Assembly: GCA_021604725.1 (NCBI GenBank)
Contig: BQJN01000004.1
Coordinates: 1 to 64,000 of the forward strand
Direction of reading: 5' to 3'
Origin: Lysobacteraceae bacterium
GTDB taxonomy: Bacteria > Pseudomonadota > Gammaproteobacteria > Xanthomonadales > BQJN01
Length of the DNA: 64,000 bases
This document shows positions 16,895-53,177 of this stretch, piece after piece. The first letter of the stretch is position 1. The number at the start of each line of letters is the position of its first letter. The notes under the pieces were generated by a model. That model saw nothing but the letters and a program-made list of their open reading frames with translations. It was not told where the DNA came from and did not search any database. Both the position numbers and the translations under genes were made by a program.

Positions 16895-17096
16895 CCTCCC
16901 GCTTGATGCGAAGAGCGGCGGAGGTACGGCGCTACTGCATAAATCGTCCGGAACGATTTATCATCGCAACGACCAACGGAAGATGCGACCCCAAAAGGGG
17001 CGCAGGGCAGGATGCCCGAAGTAACGCGTTCCCCGGAGCGCCGCCAATACAGTGGCAATACAACGAAACGCTGACACGTTTCTACGGTTAAAGAAC
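16895..17096 (+). ncRNA. Structured leader or small RNA candidate between promoter and tRNA-Ser
   Basis: Perfect hairpins TAAATCGT-CCGGA-ACGATTTA (16940-16960), CCCC-AAAA-GGGG (~16989-17000), GGGCA-GGA-TGCCC (17005-17017); no convincing ORF. Confidence 0.35.
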
Positions 17097-17187
17097 GGAG
17101 AGGTGGCCGAGCGGCTGAAGGCGCTCCCCTGCTAAGGGAGTATGGATCAAAAGTCCATCGAGGGTTCGAATCCCTCTCTCTCCGCCA
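17097..17187 (+). tRNA. tRNA-Ser(GCT)
   Basis: GGAGAGG...TCTCTCC acceptor, long variable arm, anticodon loop CTGCTAA, T-loop TTCGAAT, encoded CCA. Confidence 0.95.
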
Positions 17188-17437
17188 CAAACAAACCCGC
17201 CCAGTGCGGGTTTTTTTGTGACCGAGTGATTGGGGTGAGCTCCCTTACGGGTTCGACAAATTCGCCCGGAGCGAATTTAGAATGACGAGCGCCGCGAAGG
17301 AACCCGAAGGGCAGCGTACACGGATGTACGCTGTAATCCCTCTCTCTCCGCCACAAACAAGCCCGCCCAGTGCGGGTTTTTTTGTGACCGAGTGATTGGG
17401 TTGAGCTCCCTTACGGGTTCGACAAATTCGCCCGGAG
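17169..17437 (+). repeat. Two ~103 bp direct repeats (17169-17271, 17335-17437; offset 166) containing the tRNA-Ser 3' end plus terminator
   Basis: Read directly: AATCCCTCTCTCTCCGCCACAAACAA(A/G)CCCGCCCAGTGCGGG...GATTGGG(G/T)TGAGCTCCCTTACGGGTTCGACAAATTCGCCCGGAG, two mismatches by eye. Confidence 0.9.
17195..17217 (+). terminator. Rho-independent terminator after tRNA-Ser
   Basis: CCCGC-CCAGT-GCGGG followed by T-run. Confidence 0.75.
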
Positions 17438-17464
17438 GATACTTGCGTCGTCGGCGAACCCTTT

Positions 17465-18457
17465 TCACATCGCGGCCACCCGCTCCAGAGTCCAAAAAGC
17501 AGCGAGTCCGCCAATGGCGTACGGCACCACTGCTCCGGACCATTTCGGCAAGGTGCGGTAGAGCCGTCTGCTCGCTATCATCAAACCGCTAACGACTACG
17601 ACAAATGCCAGTTGGCCCAATTCTACGCCTACATTGAAGAACAACAGTGCCAGGGGTATCGCGTTTTGCGGCAGGCCTGTTTCCATCAATGCACCGGCGA
17701 AACCAAATCCGTGCAGTAGACCGAACGCAAAGGCAACAATCCATGGAGCGCGGGCGGTTATACCTGGTCGCCCTGCCCTGGCATGCAGTATCTCGCCGGC
17801 CACGAACATTATGCTCAAGGCGATGACAGCCTCTACCGGGGTCGATGGGACATTTACCACACCCATGGTCGCCAGTACCAACGTGATGCTGTGGGCGATT
17901 GTGAATGCGGTGATGGTTTTCACCAGCACCATCCAACGCAGGCCCACAATCAACAACAGGCCGAGCACGAATAGCAGATGATCGAATCCGAGCAGAATAT
18001 GCTCAAAACCAAGCACTGTGTAAGTGCTCACTACCTGCAAGGAACTGGGTTGTGATTCGACCGTAAACGCTGGGTTGCCAGGTGTCATTCGTGCGACCTG
18101 CGACCCGCCCTCCAACAGTTCCAAACGGACCAGGACACCGCTACTCGAGTCCAACAGACCAGTGACGCTGATCTGCTGGCCTGCCAACCCACCTGGTGTT
18201 TGAATCATCCACCGTTCAATGACTGCATTGTTGAGCAGCGTGGCATTCGGCTGGGTCAAGTTAACCGTGCCAACGGGGAGGTTTAGCTGCATGGGCGACT
18301 GCTGGCCGTTTGTCAGTAACGGAACTTTCCACAACACCGCATAGGCCGTCTCGCTGTTCTGCTCCAGTTCGAGGTAAGCGGGCCTTAGCGGATCAGCACC
18401 TGCATGGTTCGATATCAAGATCAATAGCAGAGTCAAACAGCGCGGCCAACAACTCAT
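17465..18457 (-). CDS. HupE/UreJ family membrane protein
   Basis: LGFEHILLGFDHLLFVLGLLLIV...FTIAHSITLVLA...FAFGLLHGFGFAGAL. Confidence 0.85.
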   Translation of the reverse strand: MSCWPRCLTLLLILISNHAGADPLRPAYLELEQNSETAYAVLWKVPLLTNGQQSPMQLNLPVGTVNLTQPNATLLNNAVIERWMIQTPGGLAGQQISVTGLLDSSSGVLVRLELLEGGSQVARMTPGNPAFTVESQPSSLQVVSTYTVLGFEHILLGFDHLLFVLGLLLIVGLRWMVLVKTITAFTIAHSITLVLATMGVVNVPSTPVEAVIALSIMFVAGEILHARAGRPGITARAPWIVAFAFGLLHGFGFAGALMETGLPQNAIPLALLFFNVGVELGQLAFVVVVSGLMIASRRLYRTLPKWSGAVVPYAIGGLAAFWTLERVAAM

Positions 18458-19317
18458 TTGGCGTCGCCCTGCTCTTTGATCACCACCTCACCGCGAACAA
18501 TGACTCGATACTGACCGAGCAAGCGCTGGTACATCGCCTCATTTGCGCTCTCCCTGGCACGATCTTGCCATTCCCGGATGACCCTTTCGCGAATATCTGC
18601 CAACGGTGGCAGTTGGCCAGCACTGCGTTGTTTGAGATTGACCAAGTGCAGGCCGTAGCCTGACTGCACCGGCCCCTGCCAGCCGCCTATTTCCAGCGCC
18701 TCAAGTCGATCGACAAACGACCGGCCAAGATATCGGGCCACGTCAAAACCGGACACATGATCAAAGTTTGCTGGCAGCATGGTGTTGTCACCCAGTGACT
18801 CAAGCGGCGCACTGACCGCTCCAGTATTCAAACGCTCACGAAGATCAGTCATGTCCTGTTCGGCGTTATCGTGCCTGGTTGGATCAAAATAGACCTGATC
18901 GAAGCTGAATATGGGCTCGGAGGTGAACAATTCGGCATGGTCCCGTCGAAATGACTCCAGGTCTATTTCTGAGGGTTCACCCACGTCGATCAGGTCGTTG
19001 CTTAGAAACTCCATTTTCTGTCGAAGCCTGCGCCTGATCACCAGGTCATCCTGATCCAGACCCAAGCCCAGCGCTTGACGGTAGTACACCTCCTCGCGAA
19101 TACGATTGTCGACCAGACCCGCCAGCTCATCAGCATTGGGCGGGCGCTGCCAGGTGCGTGCAAATTGCTCTTGAAGTCGCTTGATGTCCGCTTCAGTCAA
19201 CACGATTTCCTGCTGTTCAATCGACGGCGCGCCGCTGTTGACTATTTCGTTGACGACAAAGATCGCAATGCCTATCAAGACAAAGTGAAATAATGGTTCG
19301 CGTAGTATCTTTCTCAA
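18454..19317 (-). CDS. Peptidylprolyl isomerase, parvulin/PpiC-like, membrane anchored
   Basis: LREPLFHFVLIGIAIFVV...QSGYGLHLVNLKQRSAGQLPPLADIRERVIREW; probable TTG start at 19317 (track start 19518 looks over-extended). Confidence 0.78.
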   Translation of the reverse strand: MRKILREPLFHFVLIGIAIFVVNEIVNSGAPSIEQQEIVLTEADIKRLQEQFARTWQRPPNADELAGLVDNRIREEVYYRQALGLGLDQDDLVIRRRLRQKMEFLSNDLIDVGEPSEIDLESFRRDHAELFTSEPIFSFDQVYFDPTRHDNAEQDMTDLRERLNTGAVSAPLESLGDNTMLPANFDHVSGFDVARYLGRSFVDRLEALEIGGWQGPVQSGYGLHLVNLKQRSAGQLPPLADIRERVIREWQDRARESANEAMYQRLLGQYRVIVRGEVVIKEQGDAK

Positions 19318-19450
19318 AAATCGAATCCTTGTGCATTGGCAGCCAAATTGAGCAAGCCCAACGGCCAGACGGCGGTGACGGCAGGGCCGATGTTCTAAAC
19401 CGACTGCCCGCAATATACTTCGCAAGTGCAATCTACACCGGGAGTGCCGC

Positions 19451-20614
19451 GTGGACAACGACCAAAAACAATACGAGGTTGCGGTAATCGGGCTGGGGGC
19501 AATGGGCGCTGCGGCCACCTATCAATTGGCCAACAAGGGTATCAGGGTGCTTGGCATTGATCAGCACGACCCGCCCCATTCCCACGGCTCAAGTCATGGT
19601 GAGACGCGTATCACTCGCGAAGCGATTGGCGAAGGTCCACAATTCGTACCGTTGGCACGGCGGTCGCACCTGCTGTGGCGCAAGATTGAAGCGGCCAGTG
19701 GAAAACGGCTTTTCACGCAGTGTGGTGGTCTGATTATCGCCGGCAGTGGTCTTGATTCGCCCTTGCACGGCCAGCGCAACTTTCTCCGGTCCACCGTTGA
19801 CCAGGCAATCCAGCACAACATTCTCCATCGACAGCTCGCTGCCCAAACCATCGCCGAACAACACCCACAATTTGCAGTCGATGACTACCAATGCGGCTAT
19901 TACGAGCCTGGTGCCGGCTTCCTCAACCCGGAAGCTGCAATTTCGGCACAGCTGTCTTTGGCCGAGTCTGTTGGCGCGACTGTAATCACTGGCAGCAAGG
20001 CGACCTGGTCCAAGGTTGGCGCAGGCTTCGCAATCTCGGTCAATGGGAACATATTCTATGTCGACAAAGTCGTTTTAGCCCTGGGTCCATGGTTACCGCA
20101 GGCAGTGCCGTACATTTCGCCGAGACTGACCGTGCGTAGGCAATCACTATTTTGGTTCGCTCTCGATGGGACCGTCGATTACCGAACCAACACGCCAATA
20201 TTTATCTGGCACTGGGGGCCTGGCGAGAATGAGGTGTTTTACGGATTTCCGCAGATTGGACCCAAGCCTGAAATCAAAGTGGCAAGCGAACAAACCTGCA
20301 AAAGCACAGCACCCGACAACGTTGAGCGGCATATCGACAAAGATGAATGCGTCCATTTTTACGCCCGGCATCTCGCTTCTCGACTACGCGGCGTGAGTAA
20401 TCGGTGCACGCGCGCAACCTCTTGCCTTTATACCTGCACCGAAGATTCAGACTTCATTATTGATTGGTCGCCAGAGCAAGCCGACATGCTTATCGTTTCT
20501 GCGTGTTCGGGCCATGGGTTCAAACATTCCGCCGCGATCGGTGAAGCTGTGGCAGAAATGATAACGACAGGGACAACACCTGCGGTGCTTTTGCCTTTTG
20601 CATTGAAGACCTGA
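19451..20614 (+). CDS. solA: FAD-dependent N-methyl-L-tryptophan/monomeric sarcosine oxidase-like
   Basis: EVAVIGLGAMGAAATYQLANKGIRVLGIDQHDPPHSHGSSHGETRITREAIGEGPQFVPLARRSHLLW; symbol by similarity only. Confidence 0.8.
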   Translation: MDNDQKQYEVAVIGLGAMGAAATYQLANKGIRVLGIDQHDPPHSHGSSHGETRITREAIGEGPQFVPLARRSHLLWRKIEAASGKRLFTQCGGLIIAGSGLDSPLHGQRNFLRSTVDQAIQHNILHRQLAAQTIAEQHPQFAVDDYQCGYYEPGAGFLNPEAAISAQLSLAESVGATVITGSKATWSKVGAGFAISVNGNIFYVDKVVLALGPWLPQAVPYISPRLTVRRQSLFWFALDGTVDYRTNTPIFIWHWGPGENEVFYGFPQIGPKPEIKVASEQTCKSTAPDNVERHIDKDECVHFYARHLASRLRGVSNRCTRATSCLYTCTEDSDFIIDWSPEQADMLIVSACSGHGFKHSAAIGEAVAEMITTGTTPAVLLPFALKT

Positions 20615-20757
20615 AGGCCGGCGGCCCAAATTGCGGTCCGTGCTAACCGTTTCCCGATGTGTGACGTCTACGTTATTGAAAGGCAAGTGCAGAACTCGTT
20701 AGTCGCGGCAAAGCACACCAGCCTTTGAAACGAAATGTCTATCAAAGGAGATCTCGA

Positions 20758-21360
20758 ATGAGCGAACTGACTACGATAAAGGCCGGCTTAAGTGCATTTG
20801 GCGCTGCGCTGGGAATGGTGTTGATGGCTGGCAGTGGCGTCCAGGCCCATGGTGAGCACGCCATGGTGTTCTCGCACCACGACGCTGAGATTCAGGTGAT
20901 GGGAGAACGCAACAACCGACGCTACCGCGTTGGCGACCGCGTGTTCGGTCGCGATGACCTCACAGAGCAGCAATGGGCCAGGCTCGATGCCATTGAAAGG
21001 CGACTTGAAGCGGCAGAAAAGGAGTTTGAGGCCAGCACCGAAGGCCTCGATGAGTGGGCCGAGCAGATGGACAAGGTAGCAGCAAAAATTGAGCTCGCTG
21101 CCGATGGCATTGACGACATTGAGATCGACATCGATCGCACCGATGGCAAGATCAGCCACCGTGAGTTTGAGCAAATGGCCCGCGCCATGTCAGAAAAAAT
21201 GCGCGTATTTGAACAACAAATCGCAGTCCATGAGAAGGAAATGCGCGCCATCGAGGCTGAAATGCCCGAGATTAATCAAGTCGCGCTCAACCGCCTGGAA
21301 GCCGAGGCCGAGCAGCTAAAAGTTACCTTGTTGCAAATCGTCGAAGAGCTCGACACCTGA
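20758..21360 (+). CDS. Hypothetical secreted coiled-coil protein
   Basis: ATG preceded by AAAGGAG; signal peptide-like N-terminus, Glu/Lys-rich helical remainder. Confidence 0.65.
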   Translation: MSELTTIKAGLSAFGAALGMVLMAGSGVQAHGEHAMVFSHHDAEIQVMGERNNRRYRVGDRVFGRDDLTEQQWARLDAIERRLEAAEKEFEASTEGLDEWAEQMDKVAAKIELAADGIDDIEIDIDRTDGKISHREFEQMARAMSEKMRVFEQQIAVHEKEMRAIEAEMPEINQVALNRLEAEAEQLKVTLLQIVEELDT

Positions 21361-21413
21361 GATCGCTATTTGCACCGAGCTGGACACGCCCGCACGCTTG
21401 TCAAACAACCGCA

Positions 21414-21431
21414 CCGCACATGGATGTGCGG
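21414..21431 (+). repeat. GGA-loop hairpin CCGCACA-TGGA-TGTGCGG
   Basis: Perfect 7-bp stem, loop ACATGGATGT; identical to 50185-50202. Confidence 0.9.
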
Positions 21432-21481
21432 ATGTCGGCCTCGGCAGCAGCCAAAACCTGCCAGTGACAAGCCCTACAGCT

Positions 21482-22579
21482 TCAAGCCCGACGAATTGAC
21501 TCAATATCGTTACTGGCCTGACTGGAAAGGTACTGTCGAGGGGTCATGCCGGTATGCTTCTTAAATGCTCGGTAAAAGGTTGCGTTGCTGGCAAACCCTG
21601 CCTCCAGGCCGATATCCATGACCGATTGCCGGCTGCTCATATCACAAAGCAAACGCTGCGCTTCCTGAACACGTCGTTGGTTGATCAACTCTGAAAAAGA
21701 GGTATTCAGGTGGACGCTGAACAACTGAGACAGCTGATGCGGGGTGATCTCCATCACATGGGCCAAGGTGGCATGGTCCAGGTTGTCTTGACGCCACAGT
21801 TGTCGGTCATCGAGTGCTTGATCAAGGCGGCTAGTCAGCTGCCTGACTACCGAATCGGGCAATTGGCTGCGTGCATACGGCTTTCCAGGGCATGGGATGC
21901 GTTGCATCAAGCCTTCCGGCATGACCACCAGGAGCGCCACCGCATAAATCAATACTGCCACCAGGGCGGTGGTGACGTACGCGGCCACCGGTGGGTAGCT
22001 GCCGAACAGCATCAGCGAGCTGGTGAGAGCCAGGTCAAAGGCAGAATAGGCTAGCAACAAGGACAAAAGAAATCGTAACCAGGCGGTATGCCAGGCGGGA
22101 CGCGACCCACCATCCGAGGTAGTTGCTTGGCGCGAAATAGCGCTGCGAGCGGACCACGCACAGATCGCGGTTAGCACCCAGAACAACGTATACACAGCCA
22201 TAGTCAACCCTGCCGAGGGTTGCAGTGCCAGCTTTTCCGGCCCGTCCATGGCGTAGATCGGCAACATGGCCAGCGCGACCAGCCCGGCAGGCAAAAATAC
22301 CAAAGGCCAGCGCAGCGCTTGTTGCCGCAAGAACCTTTGAACGTACACGTAGGTGAGCGGACCGATCAGAAACCACATTGGCACAAACACGCCAATGAGA
22401 TGCGGCCATCGGTTCAGTAGCCCGGATGCACCGGCATAACTTTCTGCGACCAGGATCGTAGCCACCGCCACCAGGGCTGCCAGCACCGCATTGCCGGGTG
22501 CACGGCGCCTGCCGACCGTTGCCAGCAGCAGCGCCAAAAATGTGCCATGCAATACCAGCAACCCCAGTAGTGTGGTCAC
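21482..22579 (-). CDS. AraC family transcriptional regulator with membrane-spanning N-terminus
   Basis: SELINQRRVQEAQRLLCDMSSRQSVMDIGLEAGFASNATFYRAFKKHTGMTPRQYLSS. Confidence 0.87.
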   Translation of the reverse strand: MTTLLGLLVLHGTFLALLLATVGRRRAPGNAVLAALVAVATILVAESYAGASGLLNRWPHLIGVFVPMWFLIGPLTYVYVQRFLRQQALRWPLVFLPAGLVALAMLPIYAMDGPEKLALQPSAGLTMAVYTLFWVLTAICAWSARSAISRQATTSDGGSRPAWHTAWLRFLLSLLLAYSAFDLALTSSLMLFGSYPPVAAYVTTALVAVLIYAVALLVVMPEGLMQRIPCPGKPYARSQLPDSVVRQLTSRLDQALDDRQLWRQDNLDHATLAHVMEITPHQLSQLFSVHLNTSFSELINQRRVQEAQRLLCDMSSRQSVMDIGLEAGFASNATFYRAFKKHTGMTPRQYLSSQASNDIESIRRA

Positions 22580-22580
22580 C

Positions 22581-23198
22581 TCATCCGTCCTCGTTTAAGT
22601 TTGCGGTCGGACCACCGGGAATGTTGCGGCGGTATTCGATATCAAAATATTGCGTCCAGTCGCCACCGGCTTGTTTGTTGAAACCCCAGTTGTGAATGTT
22701 GCCATTGGCCATTGGCTTCCAGTGCCAGCGATGCTTGCTGCGCCGCGGCGTACCCTGCCTGTCATTAAACTCAATCCAGTCGGTTTCCAAAACCATGCTT
22801 CCATCCTGTTGCAAACCACCTCGCAATGGCAAGTATGACCCATTGTTTGCCACCCAGACTTGATGCCACTTGCCATCTGCACCCAACGCGGTGTGACTAC
22901 GACCCTCCATCCGAAACGCAGTGCCCGGCGTGGTATAGATGTCATTGAGGTGCTGCCAATGTTGCATTAGCACACATCCCTGCAGCCCTTTTTCAATGGT
23001 ATCGAAGCCAACCATCAGACCTGATGATCGATCAAACACCATCCACTTCCCGACCCAAAAGTCGAAATCAGCATAGTTCCCATTCGACTCGGCCCACCAC
23101 ACCGGCCCACTGCAGGGAATGCCTGCTGTTTGAGCCTGAGCCAGGCTTGAATGCAGTGCCGAAACGGCCAGGGCAGCGCCCAGAAAAAGGTATTTCAT
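22581..23198 (-). CDS. Hypothetical secreted protein (DUF1579-like)
   Basis: Signal peptide ALHSSLAQAQT; FDFWVGKWMVFDRSSG... Confidence 0.6.
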   Translation of the reverse strand: MKYLFLGAALAVSALHSSLAQAQTAGIPCSGPVWWAESNGNYADFDFWVGKWMVFDRSSGLMVGFDTIEKGLQGCVLMQHWQHLNDIYTTPGTAFRMEGRSHTALGADGKWHQVWVANNGSYLPLRGGLQQDGSMVLETDWIEFNDRQGTPRRSKHRWHWKPMANGNIHNWGFNKQAGGDWTQYFDIEYRRNIPGGPTANLNEDG

Positions 23199-23214
23199 CT
23201 TTTGCTCCTAGTTA

Positions 23215-23368
23215 AAGATCGTCCACGATTAACCATCCATGGCTAACGCGGACACGGGTTTTCAAGGAGCGCGGTCATTGAAACCCTTCATTTTCAATGA
23301 ATTGAAAATGGCTGGCACGTTCCATGTGCCAGGGCAAGCGTCCAAACACCTATCCGTGGACGCGCTCC
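23215..23368 (+). mobile_element. Copy 1 of the five-hairpin non-autonomous element (~154 bp, diverged ends)
   Basis: AAGATCGTCCACGATTAACCATCCATGGCTAACGCGGACAC...CTATCCGTGGACGCGCTCC; aligns along its length with copies at 38136 and 44661; left flank AGTTA. Confidence 0.8.
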
Positions 23369-23488
23369 GGTTCGATGTGACTTCATCTCGAAGCCGCAGA
23401 ACAACGTCGCATGACCCGGGTTACCGACTCATCTCAGCCCATTGGATGGAAGCAAATTGCGCTCAAAGGCTTGCGGCGCACACAAACA

Positions 23489-35797: not shown

Positions 35798-38056
35798 ATG
35801 ATCTACCGCTTTTCTGACTTTGAACTCGATACGGAACGAAGAACCCTGACCGCATCGAGCGGCCAAGTTTCGCTGACCCGACAAGCATACGACCTGCTGT
35901 TGTACTTCGTGGGCAACCCCAATGCGGTGATTTCCAAGGACGCCTTGATTGAGCATGTGTGGAGCGGCCGTATCGTCGCTGACAACACAGTCGATCAGAG
36001 TGTGTCGAAACTCCGTCGCATATTGAATCAGGCCAGTAAGTCCGAATACATCGAGTCAGTGTATGGACAAGGGTTCAAGTTCTTGCCCCGGGTTGAGACC
36101 GGTCCGAAAAAGGGCAAGGCAAGCAGCTGGCGCTGGTCTATTGCATTCGCCCTTCTGCTAGGCATCAGCGCGATTTGGGTCGCCTATCGAGACAATAGCG
36201 GCGAAGCGCTGGCACACCCACCTGTGGTGATGTTGATACCAGCGAAATCTGACGGTAGCGAAGTCGACTGGGCGGAAACAGGCGGCAACATCTTCTTTCG
36301 ACAGTTGTTGCAGTATTCCAACATCGCCGAATTGCGTGATGCCGAAGACAGCAAACCGGGCCACCTTGCCGACGACGATTTCTTGCAGAGGCAGTGGGCA
36401 TTGACACCCGAAATGCAGGTGATCACCCCTACCATTGAACAGCGCGGTAACGAAACTGTCGTCAACCTCAGCCTTGTCGATGCCGCTCAGAATGTGCACA
36501 AGGAAACCATCACAGCGACCGATCTAGCTACTGCACTGCGACGCGCATCGCTGTGGGTCGAGCAAAGATTCGACACGGCAAATGATGTTGAGCGGTTGAT
36601 ACCAGACGATTCCTATGTTGTTGAACTATACCTGCGAGGGCTATCCAGCCTGGCGCAAGGGCAACTGGACAAGGCGGAGAACTTTTTCGAACTTTGTCTG
36701 GCCGAGAACCCAGGTTTCGTTTGGGCGCGACTGGAATTGGCCAAAGTAAAAGACCGGCAGGGTGCGCCTGACCAGGCACTGGCATTGCTCGACACCCTGG
36801 AGCAGCTCAGCTCCGACCCCGCATTCGCCGTGGCAGTGCACTCTTTACGTGGCTACATCCTCGACACCAAGGGCGAACACCTTGCAGCCAGGGATTTGTA
36901 TCTTAAGGTCCTGGAAACTTACCAGGGTCAGCCGATACCCGCGCTGAACGATGTTCGCTTCAACCTGGCACTGACCTATGCAACCCTGGCTGAAAGTGGA
37001 CAGGCGCTGCAGCAACTGTCACTGATAGAGCGGAGCCTGAAACGGCATTCAGACCCTGAGTTGATGGCTGATGTGCTGCACCTGGCTGGGCGCATCGAGC
37101 AAACCAATGGCAGCAATGAACAAGCACGTATCAAAGCTGAGACGGCACTGAGCCTGTTCGAAGACTTGGGTGACCTGCTGGGTGCCGCCAAAACCCATTC
37201 ACTGCTGGCAAGAATCGCCAACCATGAAGCACGTTATGACGAAGCGATTCACCATTTGGAGACCGGGCTTGCCATCACCAGGAAGCTGAATTTTCCTCTT
37301 GGAATCGGCGCAACGCTAAATGAGTTGATCTACGCATTGATGGCGCAGGGCAAACATGACCGGGCCTGGGAGCTCAATCAGGAGCTTGAGCAGATCGCAC
37401 TGGACATTGATTACACGGCCATGCTGTTGGCTTCCAAACAGTTTTCGGTAGATATGGCTCGTGCCCAACAACGTTGGGAGACCGCCGAGGTCTATCTGCA
37501 ACAACACCTCGAACTGGCACAGGCCAGCAGTAACGGCAGAGCATTGATTGCGAATCGACTTCTCACCCTGGATCTAACCTTGGACCAGGGTAAAGTTGAC
37601 GGTGTCGCTGAGCTCATCACCAGCCTGCAAGCTCACATTGACCAAGAGGCTGAGGTTCGACTTCAGCCTCGAATCGACCAGCATCAGGCGCGACTATACT
37701 TTCTCCAGGGAAACGACGAACAGGCTATCGCCTTGCTGCAATCAGCACGACAACAGGCCAGGGAAACCGGTGATGGCGAATCATTGATCAATATCAACAA
37801 CCTGCTGGCCGAACACTTTCTTGAGCAAGAGCAACCGGACAAGGCCATGGCAGCCCTTACCGAGTCCGCAGCTCATGACCCGGTCGCTCAGCCGTATCTG
37901 ATGCTAAAGGCATGGGCACAGATGCAGATGGGCAAGCCGGTCGAAGCACTTGAGCTGGCTAACCAGTGCAAACAAAAGGTGCCCGATCTGTGGACCCGCG
38001 AGGATGAGGCCCGCTTATCAGAGATGGCCATTGCAGCGCGAGCGCAGAGTCAGTAG
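35798..38056 (+). CDS. CadC-like transcriptional regulator: winged-helix DNA-binding domain, TM, TPR region
   Basis: IYRFSDFELDTERRTLTASSGQVSLTRQAYDLLLYFVGNPNAVISKDALIEHVWSGRIVADNTVDQSVSKLRR; TM FALLLGISAIWVAY; TPR-like repeats. Confidence 0.85.
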   Translation: MIYRFSDFELDTERRTLTASSGQVSLTRQAYDLLLYFVGNPNAVISKDALIEHVWSGRIVADNTVDQSVSKLRRILNQASKSEYIESVYGQGFKFLPRVETGPKKGKASSWRWSIAFALLLGISAIWVAYRDNSGEALAHPPVVMLIPAKSDGSEVDWAETGGNIFFRQLLQYSNIAELRDAEDSKPGHLADDDFLQRQWALTPEMQVITPTIEQRGNETVVNLSLVDAAQNVHKETITATDLATALRRASLWVEQRFDTANDVERLIPDDSYVVELYLRGLSSLAQGQLDKAENFFELCLAENPGFVWARLELAKVKDRQGAPDQALALLDTLEQLSSDPAFAVAVHSLRGYILDTKGEHLAARDLYLKVLETYQGQPIPALNDVRFNLALTYATLAESGQALQQLSLIERSLKRHSDPELMADVLHLAGRIEQTNGSNEQARIKAETALSLFEDLGDLLGAAKTHSLLARIANHEARYDEAIHHLETGLAITRKLNFPLGIGATLNELIYALMAQGKHDRAWELNQELEQIALDIDYTAMLLASKQFSVDMARAQQRWETAEVYLQQHLELAQASSNGRALIANRLLTLDLTLDQGKVDGVAELITSLQAHIDQEAEVRLQPRIDQHQARLYFLQGNDEQAIALLQSARQQARETGDGESLININNLLAEHFLEQEQPDKAMAALTESAAHDPVAQPYLMLKAWAQMQMGKPVEALELANQCKQKVPDLWTREDEARLSEMAIAARAQSQ

Positions 38057-38059
38057 CTA

Positions 38060-38130
38060 GAGGTCGTCCACGTTTAGCCATCCATGGGCCGGTCGAGCTG
38101 GTCCAGAAACGTAAACTGTGGACGCGCTCT
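38060..38130 (+). mobile_element. 71 bp internally deleted copy of the five-hairpin element
   Basis: GAGGTCGTCCACGTTTAGCCATCCATGG joined directly to GCCGGTCGAGCTGGTCCAGAAACGTAAACTGTGGACGCGCTCT; flanks AGCTA/AACTA. Confidence 0.85.
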
Positions 38131-38135
38131 AACTA

Positions 38136-38288
38136 GAGGTCGTCCACGATTAGCCATCCATGGCTAACGCGGACACAAACTTTCAGAAGCGTGGTTATGA
38201 AAGTTCTTCATTTTCAATGGCTTGAAAATGCCGGCCCATCCGTGGGCCGGTCGAGCTGGTCCAGAAACGTAAACTGTGGACGCGCTCT
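38136..38288 (+). mobile_element. Copy 2 of the five-hairpin element (153 bp) with AACTA on both sides
   Basis: AACTA[GAGGTCGTCCACGATTAGCCATCCATGG...GTGGACGCGCTCT]AACTA (38131-38135 and 38289-38293). Confidence 0.9.
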
Positions 38289-38316
38289 AACTAGCGCTGC
38301 CTGCTTCGCCTAGCGC

Positions 38317-44354: not shown

Positions 44355-45570
44355 TTATTGGCAACGGTAGAACTGGCAGATCGAGTGAGCGGTATTCAGA
44401 TAAGCTTCATCAGCCAACAGCTCTGAGGCCAGTAAAAAAGCCTCTACGGTGTGGGCCACATCAACGCTTTTGAGTTTGCCCATGAAGGACTCACCGGAGC
44501 CATGCACCCGGGCATTACCTTCAGTTCGAATCTCGCCATTCCTGCTAACTCGAGTCAGTTGCCATTGAGCGGATCGAACAAGCGGGTCAGCCGCATTCTC
44601 GGAGACCAAACCGAGCTGCAACAACCTCAAAGCAATGGCCAGTGCCACGCCGTTATAACTAGAGCGCGTCCACGGATAGGTCTTTTGACGCGCTCGCCCT
44701 GGCACACGGATGTGCCAGCATTTTCCAACTTGTTGAAAATGGAGGGTTTCAATGACCGCGCTCCTTGAAACCCGTGTCCGCGTTGGCCATGGATGGCTAA
44801 TCGTGGACGACCTCTAACTGGAGTCATAGCCGCCACCCTCGATGAAATATCCCAGCTCATGCTGCTGCTCGAGCGCACTATTGAAGAAGTCTCGGCCAGT
44901 CATTTGCCACGATTGGTCGTCGCTCAAGCGCCCCAGGCTGAGAAACGCCAAAGCGTTTATCAGCAGCCGATTTGGCGCCTGACGATCGTATGCCTGCAAG
45001 GTCGCGACCTGAGTCGACAGCCACTTCGTCGCCCGCTCAAGACCAGGTCTCAACACATCGAGGCGCCGACGATAATCGGCAACAGAAGGCTCCGATTTGA
45101 ACCAGGCTGAGTCATCAAGTAACAACATGCCGACCCCAGCGGATGCCAAAAAAAAACGCGGTTCCGCTGGCCAGGTCGCCCGTGCTGGCACGATGGCCGG
45201 CAAGATAACGCGGAATCTGCAAGTCGTAAGCGCCATCCGCCTGTTGCCTGGCCGCAGCATATTCCAGCGCCGACACGAATCGGCTAAGGCTTTCCTGGTC
45301 ATGGCTTTGAGCTGCCAACTGCGCGTGAAGGTGCGCCCGGTACTGAAAACGGACATGAATGTAATCTCGACGATTGCGCCCCATGGCACCGTCAGCATTT
45401 GGCAGATGAGCCTGCGCGATGGTTCGCAACAGTCGATTTTCAAGCGATTCAGCCGCAGCTGCTACCGAAGCCAAACAAGAATCAAAGGTGACCACGGTGG
45501 CGATCGCAAGCGCCAACAAAAGACGCAATTGGACGTACCTTGTGTTATCAACGCCTAACCAGGGTTTCAC
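44355..45570 (-). pseudogene. Disrupted secreted alpha-helical protein gene (frameshift plus element insertion)
   Basis: Three consecutive minus-strand ORFs join into one protein if the A9 run at 45148-45156 loses one base and the 159 bp insertion (element plus one AGTTA) is removed: ...GYFIEGGGYDSSYNGVALAIALRLLQLG... Confidence 0.8.
44661..44814 (-). mobile_element. Copy 3 of the five-hairpin element (154 bp) inserted in a gene; 5-bp duplication TAACT/AGTTA
   Basis: + strand TAACT (44656-44660)[AGAGCGCGTCCACGG...CGTGGACGACCTC]TAACT (44815-44819). Confidence 0.92.
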
Positions 45571-45738: not shown

Positions 45739-48201
45739 GTGGGCCGTCCCATGCAGCAGGCTTCGATCGTACTTTGCGCCATATCACTGGCTTTGCCCTC
45801 GACTTTGCCGGCTGCAAACCCACCGAACGATTTGCACAAACAAATCGTTGCCGAGCCCCCTTATCACCAACGCGCCGTGCGTCACCTTCAAGCCTGTACG
45901 GATGGATTTGCCGCTGGCCACGCCTGCCAGAATGTCGATCTTCTGGCTCACCTGCCGCTTGCTGACATTGGCGGCGGTGAGGGAAGCGACATCTGGGGCT
46001 GGACTGACCCGGTCAGTGGCCGCGAGTTCGCTTTGATGGGGCGCAGCAACGGAACCGCATTTATCGAGCTGATCGGTCACCCAGATCATGTTCTGTATCT
46101 TGGTAACCTGCCACCTCACGCCAACAACTCGTCCTGGCGCGACATCAAGACCTTTGGTCATTACGCATTCATTGGCAGTGAGGCCGAAAACAGCGGCATG
46201 CAGGTCTTTGATTTGAACCAGTTGCTTGATGTTGCATCGCCGCCGGTCACCTTCAGTGAAACAACCCACTACGATGGCTTTGGTCGCTCTCACAATATCG
46301 TCATCAATGAAGACGCGGCGTTGGCCTTCGGCGTCGGATCGCAACAGGGCAGTGAAACCTGCAATGGCGGGCTTCATATGATTGACATCAGCGACCCTCT
46401 TGACCCGACATTTCTTGGCTGCTTTTCAACAGATGGCTATACCCACGATGCCCAATGCGTCACTTACAACGGACCAGATAGCGCCTATAGCGGTAACCCT
46501 ATCTGCCTCAACGCCAACGAGGACACAGTCACCGTGGTCGACGTCACTGACCCGGCAAACCCTCTGCAAATCTCCAGGACCGGCTATAACAACGTTGGCT
46601 ACACTCATCAGGGTTGGCTGACCGAGGACCATCGTTACTTTCTGCTCAACGACGAAACGGATGAAATCGGGCTAGGCCACAATACGCGGACCATCATATG
46701 GGACATGCAAGACCTTGATTCACCGCTGGTGATCGGCGAGTTCTTTAGCCACATGGCCGCGTCAGATCACAACCTTTACGTCAAAGACAATTATGTTTAT
46801 CAGGCCAACTACCAGGCGGGCTTGCGCATTCTTAATCTGGATGACATAGCTGGCGGCGAGCTTACCGAGGTGGCGTACTTTGACACCTACCCCGCTGGCG
46901 ACAATAACGGAACCCAGGGCGCCTGGAGCGTTTATCCATATTTTTCCAGCAATACAGTGATTGTTAGCGATATCAGCAATGGACTGTTTGTCCTGCGGCC
47001 GATCTTGTGCGATGAGCCGGCCGCGCCCACTGGACTAATGGCAACAGCAGCGGGTGACCATGTCATCAACCTTGAATGGACGCATCCTGCACCGCTGTTC
47101 AGCACATTCGACATCTATCGCAGCATTGGTACCTGCCCCGGACAAAATTATGAGCTGATTGCCTCCGATGCGTCAGGAACCCAGTTCGCTGACAACACCG
47201 TTTCCGGTCAGGTCGACTATTCGTATCAAGTACGCGCCAAAGACGAGACTGGCCTATGCACTTCTGTGGGCAGCAATTGCAGTGCTACATCAACCACCGG
47301 TGCCTGCACAGCTCCACCAAGCTTCTCCGGCATTGCGGAGGTAAGCAATGTCGGCACTGAGAGCTGCGCCCTTGACGTTGCCTGGCCAGCCGCCAACGCC
47401 AATTGTGGGGCGTCGGTTTCCTACAACCTTTACGGCTCGTACGACGCGGGCTTTGTGCCAGGCAACACCAACGTGGTGGCCTCCAATTTGACCGCCCTCA
47501 CCACAACCGACAACAACGTGATTTCACAGGTACCAAAGTTCTATGAGGTACGCGCAGTGGATGTCGCCAACGGCGTAGAAGACTCAAACGGCGTTCAACT
47601 GTCAGCAATACCAACGGGACCCGAAGCGACTGGTACCTGGGCCACGGGAGCGGAAATCGGCGATCCTACAATGACCCAGGGCAGTAACCGACATATTGGC
47701 TGGGAGTTGGACACGGCTCGAGCCAGAACGGGCTTGCGCAGCTTTTTCTCTACCTACAACGATGGCCAATGCAGCCGCCTGATTTCGCCACCGCTGACCT
47801 TGGCGCCAGGTAAAAGCAGTGAACTATCCTTGTGGACTGCATACGATATCGAACCGCGCTGGGACGGTGGCGTTGTCGAATTGTCGACTGATGGTGGGGA
47901 TAACTGGTCCTTGCTGACACCAGTCGGTGGCTACCCGAATACCTTCAGATCTAGCACCGACGCCTGTGGCTACACCTCTGGCACCGGTGCCTTTACTGGC
48001 ACAAACCTCGATTGGACCAACTATGTGTTTGACCTCAGTGCCCACAACGGTGCAGAGGTTCAGTTCCGCTTTAGCTTCTCAACTGATGGCGCACAAACCG
48101 AAGAAGGTTGGTACCTGGACGATATCGAGCTGAGCTCGGCCCTGGTTGCCGGCGCGTGCTTTGGCTTGGAGGACGTCATTTTTGTTGGCAACTTCGACTA
48201 G
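45739..48201 (+). CDS. Choice-of-anchor B family secreted protein
   Basis: SDIWGWTDPVSGREFALMGRSNGTAFIEL...HNIVINEDAALAFGVG...GLHMIDISDPLDPTFLGCFSTDGYTHDAQC. Confidence 0.85.
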   Translation: MGRPMQQASIVLCAISLALPSTLPAANPPNDLHKQIVAEPPYHQRAVRHLQACTDGFAAGHACQNVDLLAHLPLADIGGGEGSDIWGWTDPVSGREFALMGRSNGTAFIELIGHPDHVLYLGNLPPHANNSSWRDIKTFGHYAFIGSEAENSGMQVFDLNQLLDVASPPVTFSETTHYDGFGRSHNIVINEDAALAFGVGSQQGSETCNGGLHMIDISDPLDPTFLGCFSTDGYTHDAQCVTYNGPDSAYSGNPICLNANEDTVTVVDVTDPANPLQISRTGYNNVGYTHQGWLTEDHRYFLLNDETDEIGLGHNTRTIIWDMQDLDSPLVIGEFFSHMAASDHNLYVKDNYVYQANYQAGLRILNLDDIAGGELTEVAYFDTYPAGDNNGTQGAWSVYPYFSSNTVIVSDISNGLFVLRPILCDEPAAPTGLMATAAGDHVINLEWTHPAPLFSTFDIYRSIGTCPGQNYELIASDASGTQFADNTVSGQVDYSYQVRAKDETGLCTSVGSNCSATSTTGACTAPPSFSGIAEVSNVGTESCALDVAWPAANANCGASVSYNLYGSYDAGFVPGNTNVVASNLTALTTTDNNVISQVPKFYEVRAVDVANGVEDSNGVQLSAIPTGPEATGTWATGAEIGDPTMTQGSNRHIGWELDTARARTGLRSFFSTYNDGQCSRLISPPLTLAPGKSSELSLWTAYDIEPRWDGGVVELSTDGGDNWSLLTPVGGYPNTFRSSTDACGYTSGTGAFTGTNLDWTNYVFDLSAHNGAEVQFRFSFSTDGAQTEEGWYLDDIELSSALVAGACFGLEDVIFVGNFD

Positions 48202-48247
48202 TCAGACGCGCCTGCGAAAGGAATGCGATGCGCCCGACTTGCCTGCG

Positions 48248-49147
48248 CTAGTTGAGCGTGCTCAACGGATCCTGATGGACCAGGATATCGGCGCCGGGCC
48301 TGATTTCAAGGACTGCCTCAACCACTCGGTCGACGATCTTGTGGGCGTCCAGCACGGGTAAGTGGTCATCCAGCACGACGTGCATCTGAATGATGTCAAT
48401 GTGACCGGAGCGGCGAGTCCTCAGATCATGGACATCATGCACGCCCGAAACCGATTCTGCAGCGTGCAAAATCTGTTGTTGAACAGCTTCTGGAAGTTCT
48501 CGATCCATCAGCTCTGCAATCGCCTCGCGAGCGATCGACCCGGCACTCCAAATGATGTAAGCCGCGATCAGCAACGCAAATACAGGATCAACAATAGCCC
48601 ACCCCGCTGCCGTTGCCAGCAATGCCAACAACACCAGAGCATTACCCAGGATATCGCTGACATAGTGTGCCGCATCGCCCTTGATCGCAATCGCGCCGGT
48701 TTGTGCATAAACATGCCGTTGAAATGTAACCAGAGCAATGGTCAAGCCAAGGCTGAGCAACATCACAGCCAGGCCCAACGGCAAAGCCGTGATCGGCTGA
48801 GGGCTTCGTAGCCGCTGGTAGGCTGCGAATATCAGGAACAAAGCTGAGGCGACAATCAACGCCGCTTGCAACAAACCGACCAGTGCTTGCGCTTTACCGT
48901 GACCAAAGCGATGGTCATGGTCTGGAGGCACCAGTGAATAACGAACAACCACGGCGCTGGTCAATGATGTCAAGCTATCGAGAAACGAATCGACCAACGA
49001 CGCCAGAACACTTACCGCTCCGGTCTGCCACGTGGCCCAGGCTTTCAATACAACCAACACAATGGCGACGCCAACCGATGCCGATGTGGCCATCTTTATC
49101 AGGTGTATCCGTCGTTGGTGCGAGGCTGGCTTGGTCGTTGCTGACAT
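48248..49147 (-). CDS. fieF: Cation diffusion facilitator (FieF-like) transporter
   Basis: ASLVDSFLDSLTSLTSAVVVRYSLVPPDHDHRFGHGKAQALVGLLQ; start ATG 49147. Confidence 0.87.
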   Translation of the reverse strand: MSATTKPASHQRRIHLIKMATSASVGVAIVLVVLKAWATWQTGAVSVLASLVDSFLDSLTSLTSAVVVRYSLVPPDHDHRFGHGKAQALVGLLQAALIVASALFLIFAAYQRLRSPQPITALPLGLAVMLLSLGLTIALVTFQRHVYAQTGAIAIKGDAAHYVSDILGNALVLLALLATAAGWAIVDPVFALLIAAYIIWSAGSIAREAIAELMDRELPEAVQQQILHAAESVSGVHDVHDLRTRRSGHIDIIQMHVVLDDHLPVLDAHKIVDRVVEAVLEIRPGADILVHQDPLSTLN

Positions 49148-49337
49148 GGCCAAATTGTAACGGCATCTGTTGTGTGGTGACGAAATGCGACTGATTACTG
49201 TTGTTGTTAGCGAAGGCCGCAACGATCAATGGTTAATGGAATCGTTAACCTTGAGCGAGAACAACGATACGAGCAGCATGATTCGTATATAATCTGTCGG
49301 GCTCAAAGTCCAAATTCTTTTCAAACGGAAGGTTGCA

Positions 49338-50126
49338 ATGAACAGGTATCTAGTGGGGTGTGCTGCCCTGGTTTTGTCGGGTTCCGTGCTCGCACAGAAC
49401 GTCTATGACTCAAAATTCGGTATTGGCGGCGGTGTGTTCTTTCCATCAGCAGACACCAGCTTGCGTGTCGACGCCAGCAACTCAGACATCGGAACTGGCA
49501 TTGACCTCGAAGGCGACCTGAACTTCGACAAGGACGACACAGTCGGTCGACTAACCGCGTTCTGGCGTCCCGCACAGAAACACCGCATTTTTGTCGATTA
49601 CTACGCCATTGACCGCAGCAGTCGCACCACCTTGAAGGGCGATCTGGAGATTGACGGTGAAATCTATCCCATTGATACCGTAGTCAACGCCAGCTTCGAC
49701 ACTACAGTGGTACCGATCTTCTACGAATACTCGATTTATCAAACACCGAGAACGGAAGTTGGTATTGGCGGCGGCGTGCACTGGCTGGATCTGGAGTTTG
49801 CAATCAACGCAACCGGCACTACCCTGAATGAGTTCAGCAGTGTAAGCGGCCCGTTGCCGCTGATTGGATTCAGTGTCGATCACATGATGACCGACCAGTG
49901 GATGTTCACAGGCTCATTGCAAGCGTTCTCGGCAAATGTCGGTGACTACGACGGCAGTATTGTTTCTGCTGCAATCGGGGTTGAGTACTGGTTCAACCGC
50001 AACTTTAGCCTCGGCGTCGGCTACGACTACTTCGACCTGGACGTCGACCTCGACAAGCAAGCGTGGACCGGCAACGTCAACTACGGCTATGACGGCGCAA
50101 ACCTTCGTATCGTTGCTCGCTTCTAG
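49338..50126 (+). CDS. Outer-membrane beta-barrel protein
   Basis: Signal peptide, alternating beta pattern, C-terminal aromatic residue (IVARF). Confidence 0.75.
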   Translation: MNRYLVGCAALVLSGSVLAQNVYDSKFGIGGGVFFPSADTSLRVDASNSDIGTGIDLEGDLNFDKDDTVGRLTAFWRPAQKHRIFVDYYAIDRSSRTTLKGDLEIDGEIYPIDTVVNASFDTTVVPIFYEYSIYQTPRTEVGIGGGVHWLDLEFAINATGTTLNEFSSVSGPLPLIGFSVDHMMTDQWMFTGSLQAFSANVGDYDGSIVSAAIGVEYWFNRNFSLGVGYDYFDLDVDLDKQAWTGNVNYGYDGANLRIVARF

Positions 50127-50146
50127 CTCACAATTGCCCGTTGAGT

Positions 50147-50167
50147 GATCCGCTCTCAGAGCGGATC
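50147..50167. repeat. Perfect hairpin GATCCGCTC-TCA-GAGCGGATC
   Basis: 9-bp stem read directly; lies 17 bp before the GGA-loop hairpin. Confidence 0.85.
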
Positions 50168-50184
50168 GAATAGACAATGAACGA

Positions 50185-50202
50185 CCGCACATGGATGTGC
50201 GG
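50185..50202 (+). repeat. GGA-loop hairpin CCGCACA-TGGA-TGTGCGG
   Basis: Identical to 21414-21431. Confidence 0.9.
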
Positions 50203-50258
50203 ACTGGCCAGCATGGTTACCGACTTTCTTGCCACGCCCCCGTGTGCTCACCGCGTTC

Positions 50259-51509
50259 TCAGTCTAAAGGGAGCTTCCCTCTATCGGTAACCTTCAATGC
50301 GCACAGGAATGACACCACGGCGGCAGCGCTGATGTACCAGGCAAAAGCCAGATCATCATGGCTGCGCTCAATCAACCACACGGCAACCATGGGGCTGGTG
50401 CCGCCCAAAACGGCAAAAGTGAGGTTATAGCTGACGCTCACTGCTGTGACTCGAACTGAGCGAGGAAAGGATTCGGTCATGGTCGCCGGGATTGACGACG
50501 CGAATACAGCCACCAGCAAAGCGAAACCAATCTGGCCAGAGGCAATCCACAATGCGTTCGGGTGATGCATCAGTGAAACCAGTGGATACGCCAATACAGC
50601 AGTAGCACCAATACCCAACAGCATCATGCGCTTGCGTCCAAACGCATCGGCCAACCTCGCCGACAGGGGCAGCGCTGCAAGAAGCACCAACATGGCCATT
50701 GTGTTGATGTCCAATGCAGTTGAGCGAGCCTCACCAACGTTTTTGATCATCCAGGTGACCGCATACACGAACATCAAATAGAAAGTGACGGCCAGTACTA
50801 CGTTCAAGCCGATCACTTGTGCCAAAGCCCTGCCATGGTTGCGGACAGCCTCGACCAAGGGAGACTTTTCTCCAGCGGCCACAGGATGTTCTTCCAGACC
50901 ACGACGAATGAAGTAACCCATCCCCGCGACCGCAATACCAGCCAGGAAAGCGACGCGCCAGCCCCAGTCATTCAACGCTTCGGGCGACATCAGGCTGCTG
51001 AGCAAGGCGCCGACCGCAGATCCCAACAAGATCCCTCCTGTGGCACCGAACATGCTCCAACAAGTGAAAAAAGCGCGTCGCCCGGGCGGTGCACGCTCGG
51101 CCAGGAAGACTATGGAACTGGTGTACTCGCCACCAACGGCCACGCCCTGCGCCATACGCATCAAGACCATCAACACGGCCGCCATCACACCCCATGTCTC
51201 AAACGTCGGTAGCAGCCCAATGCAAAAGGTCGGCACCGCCATGCACAAGACTGACAGCTTCAGCGCATGTCCGCGTCCGTAACGGTCACCGATATGGCCA
51301 AAAATGGCCGCACCTACCGGACGCATCAAAAAGCCGGCGGCAAACGCACCGAATGCAGCGATCAACGAAAGCATCGGGTTATGCGATGGAAAAAACTGGG
51401 TGGCGATCACTGAGGCGAAAAACCCGTAAACACCAAAGTCATACCATTCAAGAACGTTGCCAACCACCCCGGCCGTTATTGTCCTTCGCTCGCTCCACTG
51501 CTTCGCCAT
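50259..51509 (-). CDS. MFS transporter, metabolite:H+ symporter (MHS) type
   Basis: TITAGVVGNVLEWYDFGVYGFFASVIATQFFP...FLMRPVGAAIFGHIGDRYGRGHAL. Confidence 0.92.
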   Translation of the reverse strand: MAKQWSERRTITAGVVGNVLEWYDFGVYGFFASVIATQFFPSHNPMLSLIAAFGAFAAGFLMRPVGAAIFGHIGDRYGRGHALKLSVLCMAVPTFCIGLLPTFETWGVMAAVLMVLMRMAQGVAVGGEYTSSIVFLAERAPPGRRAFFTCWSMFGATGGILLGSAVGALLSSLMSPEALNDWGWRVAFLAGIAVAGMGYFIRRGLEEHPVAAGEKSPLVEAVRNHGRALAQVIGLNVVLAVTFYLMFVYAVTWMIKNVGEARSTALDINTMAMLVLLAALPLSARLADAFGRKRMMLLGIGATAVLAYPLVSLMHHPNALWIASGQIGFALLVAVFASSIPATMTESFPRSVRVTAVSVSYNLTFAVLGGTSPMVAVWLIERSHDDLAFAWYISAAAVVSFLCALKVTDRGKLPLD

Positions 51510-51569
51510 TGGCTGGTCCCCTTCTTGAAAATCATTGGCTATCGTAACTTACACCGGTGTCACACCCAC

Positions 51570-52517
51570 TTATTCCGGTTCAGTTGCTTTTAACCGCTCG
51601 CGCAGTGCCGTAAACGCTTCGGGTGCGTCGCGGTATTTCTCGTAGCTGCGGCTGTGATAGTCCATATGTTGCCAGAACTCTGTAGCTTCAGCATGGTGCG
51701 GGTCTGCTCCGGCCTCTATCAATGCCAAAGCATTATTCCAATGCATGCGGCGGGCCGCTATGGCGATGGGCGGTGGTTCGCCACCACCACTGACATCGGG
51801 GTCCGCTCCAGACCTCAGCAACAAGCGCACTTTCTCAGTTTCCTCGCCAAACTGAGCAACTACTTTCCACAACACCGTCCTGTCCTGCTGGTCGACACTG
51901 TTCGGGTCAGCACCGTGTTCAAGCATTGAGCTGAATATCGGCATTTCGATAATGACGTCGTTGTTCAAGATCAATGGTTCGGCGCCAACGGCATGCAGGT
52001 TCGGATTGGCGCCATGCTGCAGCAACATATCAATGGCCTGCAGCATCGCCTCTGATCGATTGAAGTAGTAACGATCGACTGCGATATCCAGCAAACGCAG
52101 TTCTCCACTGCCCGTGTCATTGATCAATTCACTGTGTGCTTGCAGCAACTGAGCGAGCATCTGGAGATCGGGCTGACTCAATGCAGCAGCCAGTGCCCGT
52201 CGTGGTGATTCATCGAAGTAGGCGCTGCCATCGGCCTGTGCCTTCATCTGTTGCGACCATTGATAGCCTTGCAACTGCTGATGGCCCCAATAAACGACCG
52301 GCAGCCCCAACACGCAAAGCGCGACAATTTGAGTTGCCCAGGTATTGATCAATGCCAACAAAAAACCCACTGTCGCCACACCGGCCAAAACCAGCGCAAA
52401 ACCGAAGGCCATACCCCGTCCCGCCGCATCGGACGATGAGCTGGTGAAAAATGTGACCGTGACCAGGATAAACCAACCGCCCACCGCGATCAGGTTGATG
52501 ACTTTGAGTGTCGACAT
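51570..52517 (-). CDS. Ankyrin-repeat membrane protein
   Basis: N-terminal TM segments; ankyrin-like units LLQHGANPNLHAVGAEPL, MLEHGADPNSVDQQDRTVLWKV, LLRSGADPDVSGGGEPPPIAIAARR. Confidence 0.8.
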   Translation of the reverse strand: MSTLKVINLIAVGGWFILVTVTFFTSSSSDAAGRGMAFGFALVLAGVATVGFLLALINTWATQIVALCVLGLPVVYWGHQQLQGYQWSQQMKAQADGSAYFDESPRRALAAALSQPDLQMLAQLLQAHSELINDTGSGELRLLDIAVDRYYFNRSEAMLQAIDMLLQHGANPNLHAVGAEPLILNNDVIIEMPIFSSMLEHGADPNSVDQQDRTVLWKVVAQFGEETEKVRLLLRSGADPDVSGGGEPPPIAIAARRMHWNNALALIEAGADPHHAEATEFWQHMDYHSRSYEKYRDAPEAFTALRERLKATEPE

Positions 52518-52604
52518 TTGGCGATCGTTGTTTAGCTTACTGTTGCCAGCGTACCGGAAACGGAAGATTTAAACGATCTACTCGCCGCAGTGTCACAGCC
52601 GATT

Positions 52605-52967
52605 CTATATTCGAATAGTCTGGCGCCGACGCGTGAGACTCACGAAGGCCGACAGCGCAACCAAGACAGTCAACGCACCGAACGAAGCGAGGCCGATCGT
52701 TGGTACTGGGATTGGCGCGAGTTGGCCAGGTGCGCTCTGCCAATAGCTATCGGATGTGTAGTGAGCGATGGACGTGGCATCAATGGCGAGTCTGACGCTC
52801 CCGCTGGTCGCGATAATTTTCTCCTGGAAAATTATTGCTCGTATCGTCCTGATACTCGTCCCGTTGGGACTCCCGCTGGTCGCGATAATTCGTTCCGGTG
52901 GTTTTTGTAGGGTGCCGTCCGTGAAGGCCATGCCGCTCATAGGGTGGTGTGATGTTGCGCGTATCAT
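52605..52967 (-). pseudogene. IPTL-CTERM-type C-terminal tail fused to hairpin-repeat sequence; probable gene remnant
   Basis: ...APIPVPTIGLASFGALTVLVALSAFVSLTRRRQTIRI sorting-like tail; upstream ORF residues derive from the 99 bp repeat. Confidence 0.5.
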
Positions 52968-53089
52968 CCTTGATACGCGTCGCGTAGCGACTCCCGCTGG
53001 TCGCGATAATTTTCTCCTGGAAAATTATTGCTCGTATCGTCCTGATACTCGTCCCGTTGGGACTCCCGCTGGTCGCGATAATTCGTTCC
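52798..53089 (-). repeat. Two perfect 99 bp direct repeats (52798-52896; 52991-53089) made of short hairpins
   Basis: CTCCCGCTGGTCGCGATAATTTTCTCCTGGAAAATTATTGCTCGTATCGTCCTGATACTCGTCCCGTTGGGACTCCCGCTGGTCGCGATAATTCGTTCC twice, offset 193. Confidence 0.92.
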
Positions 53090-53117
53090 CGACGAATTAT
53101 TGGTTGTTGGTCAGCGC

Positions 53118-53177
53118 CTGACAGTTGCGGCAGGATGCCCAATCTGTCAGATAACCAACCCGTGCATGGATGCACGG
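53118..53177 (+). repeat. Two tandem GGA-loop hairpins
   Basis: CTGACAGTTGcGGCA-GGA-TGCCCAAtCTGTCAG and CCGTGCA-TGGA-TGCACGG (53160-53177). Confidence 0.85.

Follow-up and report, generated by a model that had tools for sequence, protein, structure and literature searches.

GGA-loop hairpins in the window and in the host genome

Why do so many intergenic hairpins of a single bacterial contig carry GGA in their loops, and could the global regulator CsrA (RsmA) be what recognises them? These questions were raised by a 64,000-nt stretch of DNA, hereafter the window, which is taken from contig 4 of a draft genome in 210 contigs (4.68 Mb, 89.6% complete). The nearest named relatives of the host AlaS protein are those of Methylonatrum and Wenzhouxiangella (63%), and this comparison suggests that the host represents a family near the Xanthomonadales.

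A sequence-only reading of the window had named a series of GGA hairpins, all of which were found in place, and had described nearly every strong intergenic hairpin as being of this kind. The GGA hairpins are real, but their dominance was overstated, GGA being absent from ordinary terminators and from a few further hairpins; the motif occupied the loop on one strand in 14 of the 44 perfect hairpins of the window (stem ≥7, loop 3–8). Enrichment over shuffled controls was strong in a 444-kb sample of the host genome, where the 190 hairpins (stem ≥7, loop 3–5) included 48 with GGA loops, compared to 5–10 of ~100 in first-order shuffles. In 844 kb of the genome, GGA was present in 75 of 350 strong short-loop hairpins, 54 of them with the octamer core CANGGATG. 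This octamer formed 7-bp hairpins at 54 of its 216 occurrences, versus none of the 167 occurrences of CANAGGTG and CANGAGTG, permuted octamers of the same composition.

The GGA hairpins are parts of several unrelated intergenic repeat families, and their abundance is explained by their being carried by these mobile or tandem repeats. The sequence-only reading had correctly recognised a family of GGA hairpins and had missed the repeats to which they belong.

Repeat families that carry the hairpins

F2 is a MITE-like element of ~165 nt with inverted ends, YTAR/CTAG flanks and five hairpins in the order hp0, hpA (CANGGATG), hpB, hpC (loop AACCACGCTT) and hpD (CCA(N)GGATGG within the right end). 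Its three copies in the window, beginning at 23208, 38130 and 44655, were scored with R1, a covariance model of the hpA–hpD core. The degenerate copy at 23208..23371 on the minus strand (core 23228-23332) scored 77 bits. The copy at 38130..38300, also on the minus strand (core 38149-38250), scored 111.9 bits with a fold z of −5.9, and its hpA and hpD read CCGGCCCA[CGGA]TGGGCCGG and TTAGCCA[TGGA]TGGCTAA, respectively. The plus-strand copy at 44655..44820 (core 44699-44801) was supported by R1 (98 bits) and by its fold. A partial minus-strand copy at 38054..38136 is chained to the next copy through a common CTAACTAG end; such head-to-tail chains with 158-nt spacing were observed at window positions 38054-38300 and at G000:C45:8744-9065 and C70:6546-7026. 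Another host element, F3 (L007:17564, L021:19101), is unlike F2 in appearance but has the same architecture, which was also found in elements of the distant genomes G184, G078, G015 and G033.

F1 is an element of ~130 nt with two GGA hairpins in the layout GGGTGAG-P1-GAACGA-P2(CANGGATG)-GCTGG-P4(CCATGGATGG). A degenerate copy on the plus strand at 50140..50254, reading GAACGA-CCGCACA[TGGA]TGTGCGG (hairpin 50185-50202), scored 23 bits with R2, the covariance model of F1. A single plus-strand hairpin between convergent genes, CCGCACA[TGGA]TGTGCGG at 21414..21431, has the same stem as in F1, the remainder of which is unrecognisable there.

F4 and "type B" hairpins form tandem units located directly 3′ of tmRNA, tRNA-Thr and tRNA-Ser on the same strand, and these units partly repeat the 3′ end and the terminator of the RNA gene. 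An F4 array lies 3′ of tRNA-Thr at 52798..53110 on the minus strand, with the loops CAGGA, AGGA and CGGGA in hairpins at 52813-52835, 52958-52979, 53006-53028 and 53078-53100, and two more GGA hairpins at 53108..53182 on the opposite (plus) strand, an apical GGC[AGGAT]GCC and CCGTGCA[TGGA]TGCACGG (53160-53177). On the plus strand 5′ of tRNA-Ser, the region 16939..17017 contains, by sequence and fold, ATAAATCGT[CCGGA]ACGATTTAT (16939-16961) and GGGCA[GGA]TGCCC (17005-17017). A further tRNA-Ser-associated region on this strand, 17240..17336 (fold z −3.6), contains AAATTCGC[CCGGA]GCGAATTT (17258-17278) and CAGCGTACA[CGGA]TGTACGCTG (17312-17333). It is flanked by a repeat of the tRNA-Ser 3′ end and terminator (17169-17271 and 17335-17437), so that across 17169-17437 the GGA hairpins are bracketed by a 103-nt repeat as if a small element had inserted 3′ of the tRNA. 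At L021:19278-19925 (G000:C19), 3′ of the tmRNA at C19:40001-40353, each tandem unit consists of a terminator-like sequence and GGA hairpins, and csrA is found ~4 kb beyond these units.

Covariation and polarity of the hairpins

The R1 search returned 78 copies in 60 loci. In 60 distinct copies from more than 30 genomes, 96.7% of the cells in the stems were paired, both sides had changed in 30 of the 32 pairs, and 413 cells showed double changes compared to 93 after shuffling and at most 112 in slid-partner controls. Against this background of changing stems, GGA persisted in about 54 of 58 distinct copies for hpA and in 59 of 60 for hpD; the hpB loop, by contrast, was variable. The hpA loops read CANGGA[U/G/C]G and the hpD loops CAUGGAUGG or CAGGAUGG; the base 3′ of GGA in hpA was U, G or C, which breaks the closing pair and leaves GGA untouched. 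For a typical R1 core, the fold had an energy of −56.7 kcal/mol (z −8.9) and placed the two GGAs in the apical loops. Within any one element, every GGA was on the same strand, and single-mismatch stems showed on this strand a modest excess of G-U (26) over A-C (18). The hpC loop of R1 elements is also conserved (AACCACGCTT / AAUCRCAUUUU; for example, at L240:1501-1611) and is not a CsrA motif; as a guess, an Hfq-like ligand might bind such an A/U-rich loop.

F1 behaved similarly. Its pattern had 98 exact and at least 166 near matches in the host genome, compared to none for the control pattern. The P2 stem appeared in 24 combinations among the 98 copies, and all four Watson-Crick pairs were common at two positions (for instance, GC 38, CG 39, AU 14 and UA 6 at pair 3). 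In the alignment, 92.6% of cells were paired, with a covariation score of 0.425 versus 0.148 after shuffling, and the single-stranded flanks GAACGA and GCTGG were fixed. One-mismatch stems of the host CANGGATG hairpins contained 12 G-T and 2 A-C mismatches on the GGA strand, and the GGA strand is therefore the one that folds.

Near-perfect stems of many different sequences could also arise if template switching corrected imperfect palindromes in the absence of selection. This origin is scarcely credible: correction would hold neither GGA to one strand nor CA/TG beside the loop, yet inverted (TCC) loops were essentially absent from the R1 copies, and the F1 flanks are fixed despite being single-stranded. 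Loop polarity in particular disfavours quasi-palindrome correction.

Genomic context of the elements

A strand bias relative to the flanking genes, proposed as a check by the sequence-only reading, was not observed toward sense for R1, with 11 sense and 21 antisense copies between co-directional genes as defined by simple ORF calls. This random orientation suggests that selection targets individual sites less than the element family, and selection for the hairpins probably acts largely at the family level. Sense-direction bias was confined to F1 relatives (11 loci), which were sense with the upstream gene in 9 of the 11 and often started at its TGA stop codon. At L260, L263, L265 and L268, F1 begins at the stop codon in apparent ruvC-ruvA, guaB-guaA and rpoA-proximal intergenic regions of relatives, the genes being named by eye.

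By the same simple ORF calls, R1 occupied 29 convergent versus 16 divergent intergenic regions, and several of the hairpins lie directly 3′ of genes, tRNAs or tmRNA, as would be expected if they were stable 3′-end structures (terminators, exonuclease barriers or insulators between convergent genes) with an incidental GGA loop. We consider this very unlikely. A hairpin can be stable without an invariant GGA loop, a U-tract follows the GGA hairpin in few cases, and the loop is fixed while the closing A-U pair is free; conservation of the loop without that of the closing pair speaks against a pure terminator reading.

Distribution across genomes and association with csrA

The suggestion that the hairpin family extends beyond this genome proved right, with matches across the Gammaproteobacteria. 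The bare hairpin pattern SCACANGGATGTGS was present in 135 of 274 gammaproteobacterial genomes, with about 800 matches versus 14 for the backward-read control (summed by hand). Full-length R1 copies (E≤0.001) were detected in 61 of 369 Gammaproteobacteria genomes. R1 matched 13 of 151 genomes of the order and 40 of 374 genomes of a phylum sample, with a named hit in a Mariprofundaceae genome (Zetaproteobacteria; L186). With R2, F1 was found in 23 of the 151 genomes of the order, spanning seven families, often as tandem arrays. The host and many distant relatives contain at least dozens to more than 100 copies of the repeats per genome. At L099:8773-9322 of G078, at least four 116-nt R1 cores follow each other in tandem with no terminal repeats between them, possibly forming a CsrB-like array. 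Neither plasmid records nor viral contigs with one exact pattern yielded a full element.

The host genome contains one csrA, as the sequence-only reading required of a CsrA ligand. The encoded protein is a canonical CsrA with intact RNA-binding residues; at L4, R44 and throughout its core, it is almost the same as the E. coli protein. R1 was present in 43 of 235 genomes in which csrA was found and in 4 of 39 in which it was not, and the elements were not clearly rarer in the latter group. All four csrA-negative genomes with R1 (G182, G254, G152 and G296) are drafts, and two of them belong to families in which a relative has csrA.

These four genomes, together with the conserved hpC loop (AACCACGCTT / AAUCRCAUUU), which suggests at least one further ligand, leave some room for recognition of the elements by another RNA-binding protein with an ANGGA preference. 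This appears highly improbable, as the CsrA family is the one known for this consensus, and 43 of the 47 R1-positive genomes tested for csrA have the gene.

Correspondence to CsrA/RsmA-binding RNAs

The SELEX consensus of CsrA is RUACARGGAUGU (PMC4347634), and the RsmE consensus is 5′A/UCANGGANGU/A, with CANGGANG given by the same source (PMC6849547). The loops and flanks of the elements equal both consensus sequences, and, as in CANGGANG, GGA and the flanking C-G pair do not vary, in contrast to the base 3′ of GGA, which is free. Several unrelated repeat families of one genome converge on this same loop. Since the loops match the CsrA/RsmE consensus and the core of host CsrA is nearly identical to that of E. 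coli, we propose that the elements are CsrA-binding RNA modules. The original idea of CsrA/RsmA recognition is thereby well supported at the sequence level by the consensus loops, the one-strand GGAs and a csrA gene with intact RNA-binding residues. The further idea of a decoy system is conjectural, and the MITE-like copies had no bias toward the sense strand.

CsrB/CsrC and RsmX/Y/Z likewise consist of several one-strand hairpins with ANGGA-type GGA loops in organisms with csrA, and both features, several consensus GGA loops on one strand and csrA in the same genome, were found here. In contrast to these RNAs, the present elements are dispersed, multicopy and mobile, have two (to four) sites per unit and have no Rfam match: the curated Csr/Rsm families of Rfam release 15 did not match them, F1 included, at threshold. 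The nearest Rfam family was RsmW (RF02809), at 33.0 and 32.5 bits versus a gathering score of 52. RsmW of P. aeruginosa is an RsmA-binding, 3′UTR-derived sRNA described as lacking homology to other Rsm RNAs (PMC4950607). An F2 copy aligns to it over the full 124 positions, with GGA in the first and last hairpins and two hairpins between them; RsmW is, however, described as a single locus, and its description does not present it as mobile. Membership in RsmW was rejected, the full-length alignment being weak and 0 of 274 genomes of the class matching at E≤0.001.

TwoAYGGAY (RF01731) has two AYGGAY-loop hairpins and is proposed to bind CsrA (PMC4333381; Weinberg 2010, PMC2864571) on the same motif logic as applied here. 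It was reported from gut metagenomes, gammaproteobacteria and Clostridiales, and not as a high-copy repeat. Searches of F1 and F2 sequence with an E cut-off of 10 gave no match to its covariance model. A weak match to Termite-flg RNA (RF01729, 17.7 bits, E 2.3), another GGAU-loop motif, was seen for F1 at L204:1464-1570. The RsmA-binding RsmU of Xanthomonas campestris originates from an mRNA 3′UTR and has 3–4 GGA motifs (PMC7694677); by description, it resembles what would be expected of F1 copies 3′ of genes. Our literature search found no paper linking MITEs or extragenic palindromes with CsrA.

Element ends and mobility

R1 elements of many genomes end in YTAR-GGAASCTCTGA. In Marinobacter and Xanthomonas, plasmids have the same ends next to IS5-family transposase genes, and the IS5-family elements there lack the GGA hairpin. 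Other R1 copies have quite different ends (AGAGCGCGTCCAC, CAGGCTGTTGAAAAA, GAGCCTGTCGCAGAATG), and the core was kept with at least four kinds of ends. From this comparison of sequences, the core is therefore taken to be the payload. IS5-like terminal inverted repeats were found for the GGAASCTCTGA class, the other ends differing, and most copies inspected had flanks of TTAA, CTAG, CTAA or TTAG, consistent with a YTAR target duplication. Like IS5-derived MITEs, F2/R1 elements are shorter than 200 bp, have no ORF and have terminal inverted repeats, YTAR/CTAG flanks and IS5-family-like ends; unlike them, they have an RNA core conserved across families with varied terminal repeats. No autonomous partner with the same ends was found in the DNA searched, which amounted to 844 kb for the host and 400 kb for G184.

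In common with REP/BIME sequences moved by RAYT, the elements are intergenic palindromes in many copies. They differ in having GGA in the loop and not a tetranucleotide before the stem, and no Y1 (HUH) or TnpA-REP (Y1_Tnp) transposase gene was found in the ~90% complete host genome, and a REP/RAYT reading was rejected on this ground.

The IS5-like ends, the YTAR flanks, the neighbouring transposase genes on the Marinobacter and Xanthomonas plasmids, the random orientation to genes and the tandem chaining of copies would all fit purely selfish MITEs, the hairpins of which serve as ssDNA or cruciform transposition signals and resemble CsrA sites by coincidence. We regard such a coincidence as unlikely. 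A core kept with at least four kinds of ends is not the signal by which the ends are recognised, and the CANGGATG hairpin is missing from IS5 itself. The same loops occur in F1 and in the tRNA-linked arrays, neither of which is of IS5 type. In addition, the host lacks a detectable Y1 (HUH) transposase, and loop and flanks fit a 10-base protein consensus.

Proposed function

Taken together, the hairpins are probably CsrA/RsmA-recognition sites in structured RNA modules spread by several small-repeat families. We infer that an element would be transcribed by read-through from the upstream gene, tRNA or tmRNA, or possibly from its own promoter. The GGA-strand RNA would then fold so as to offer CsrA two or more high-affinity sites, namely hpA plus hpD or P2 plus P4, and two sites per unit would be enough to engage one CsrA dimer. 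The expected outcome would be titration of CsrA, together with protection of the transcript or its processing at the 3′ end, on the model of the 3′UTR-derived sRNAs RsmW and RsmU; alternatively, binding may benefit the element itself. F2/R1 would spread as IS5-type non-autonomous elements, and F1 and the tRNA-linked arrays would use another route.

Known CsrA decoys are encoded by dedicated sRNA genes, of which a genome has one to a few. In the elements described here, no part is better conserved than the CsrA-type hairpin; they are dispersed in dozens to hundreds of copies, occur across some fifty families and are absent from Rfam. As a tentative and somewhat less than even proposition, the elements could form a Pseudomonadota-wide superfamily of mobile structured RNAs with a CsrA-binding module as payload, recombined with different transposon ends and, in some lineages, multiplied until a genome contains hundreds of CsrA sites. 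Their transposition might tune a global regulator, or CsrA might be exploited for expression of the elements, and RsmW might be one domesticated member. Jumping DNA may thus be distributing binding sites that sequester or redirect a master regulator. If CsrA is bound, mobile elements would help to set the effective CsrA pool of many bacteria and would need to be considered whenever CsrA targets are predicted genome-wide. It would then also become possible to test where poorly conserved sponges such as RsmW, which could be domesticated repeats, came from.
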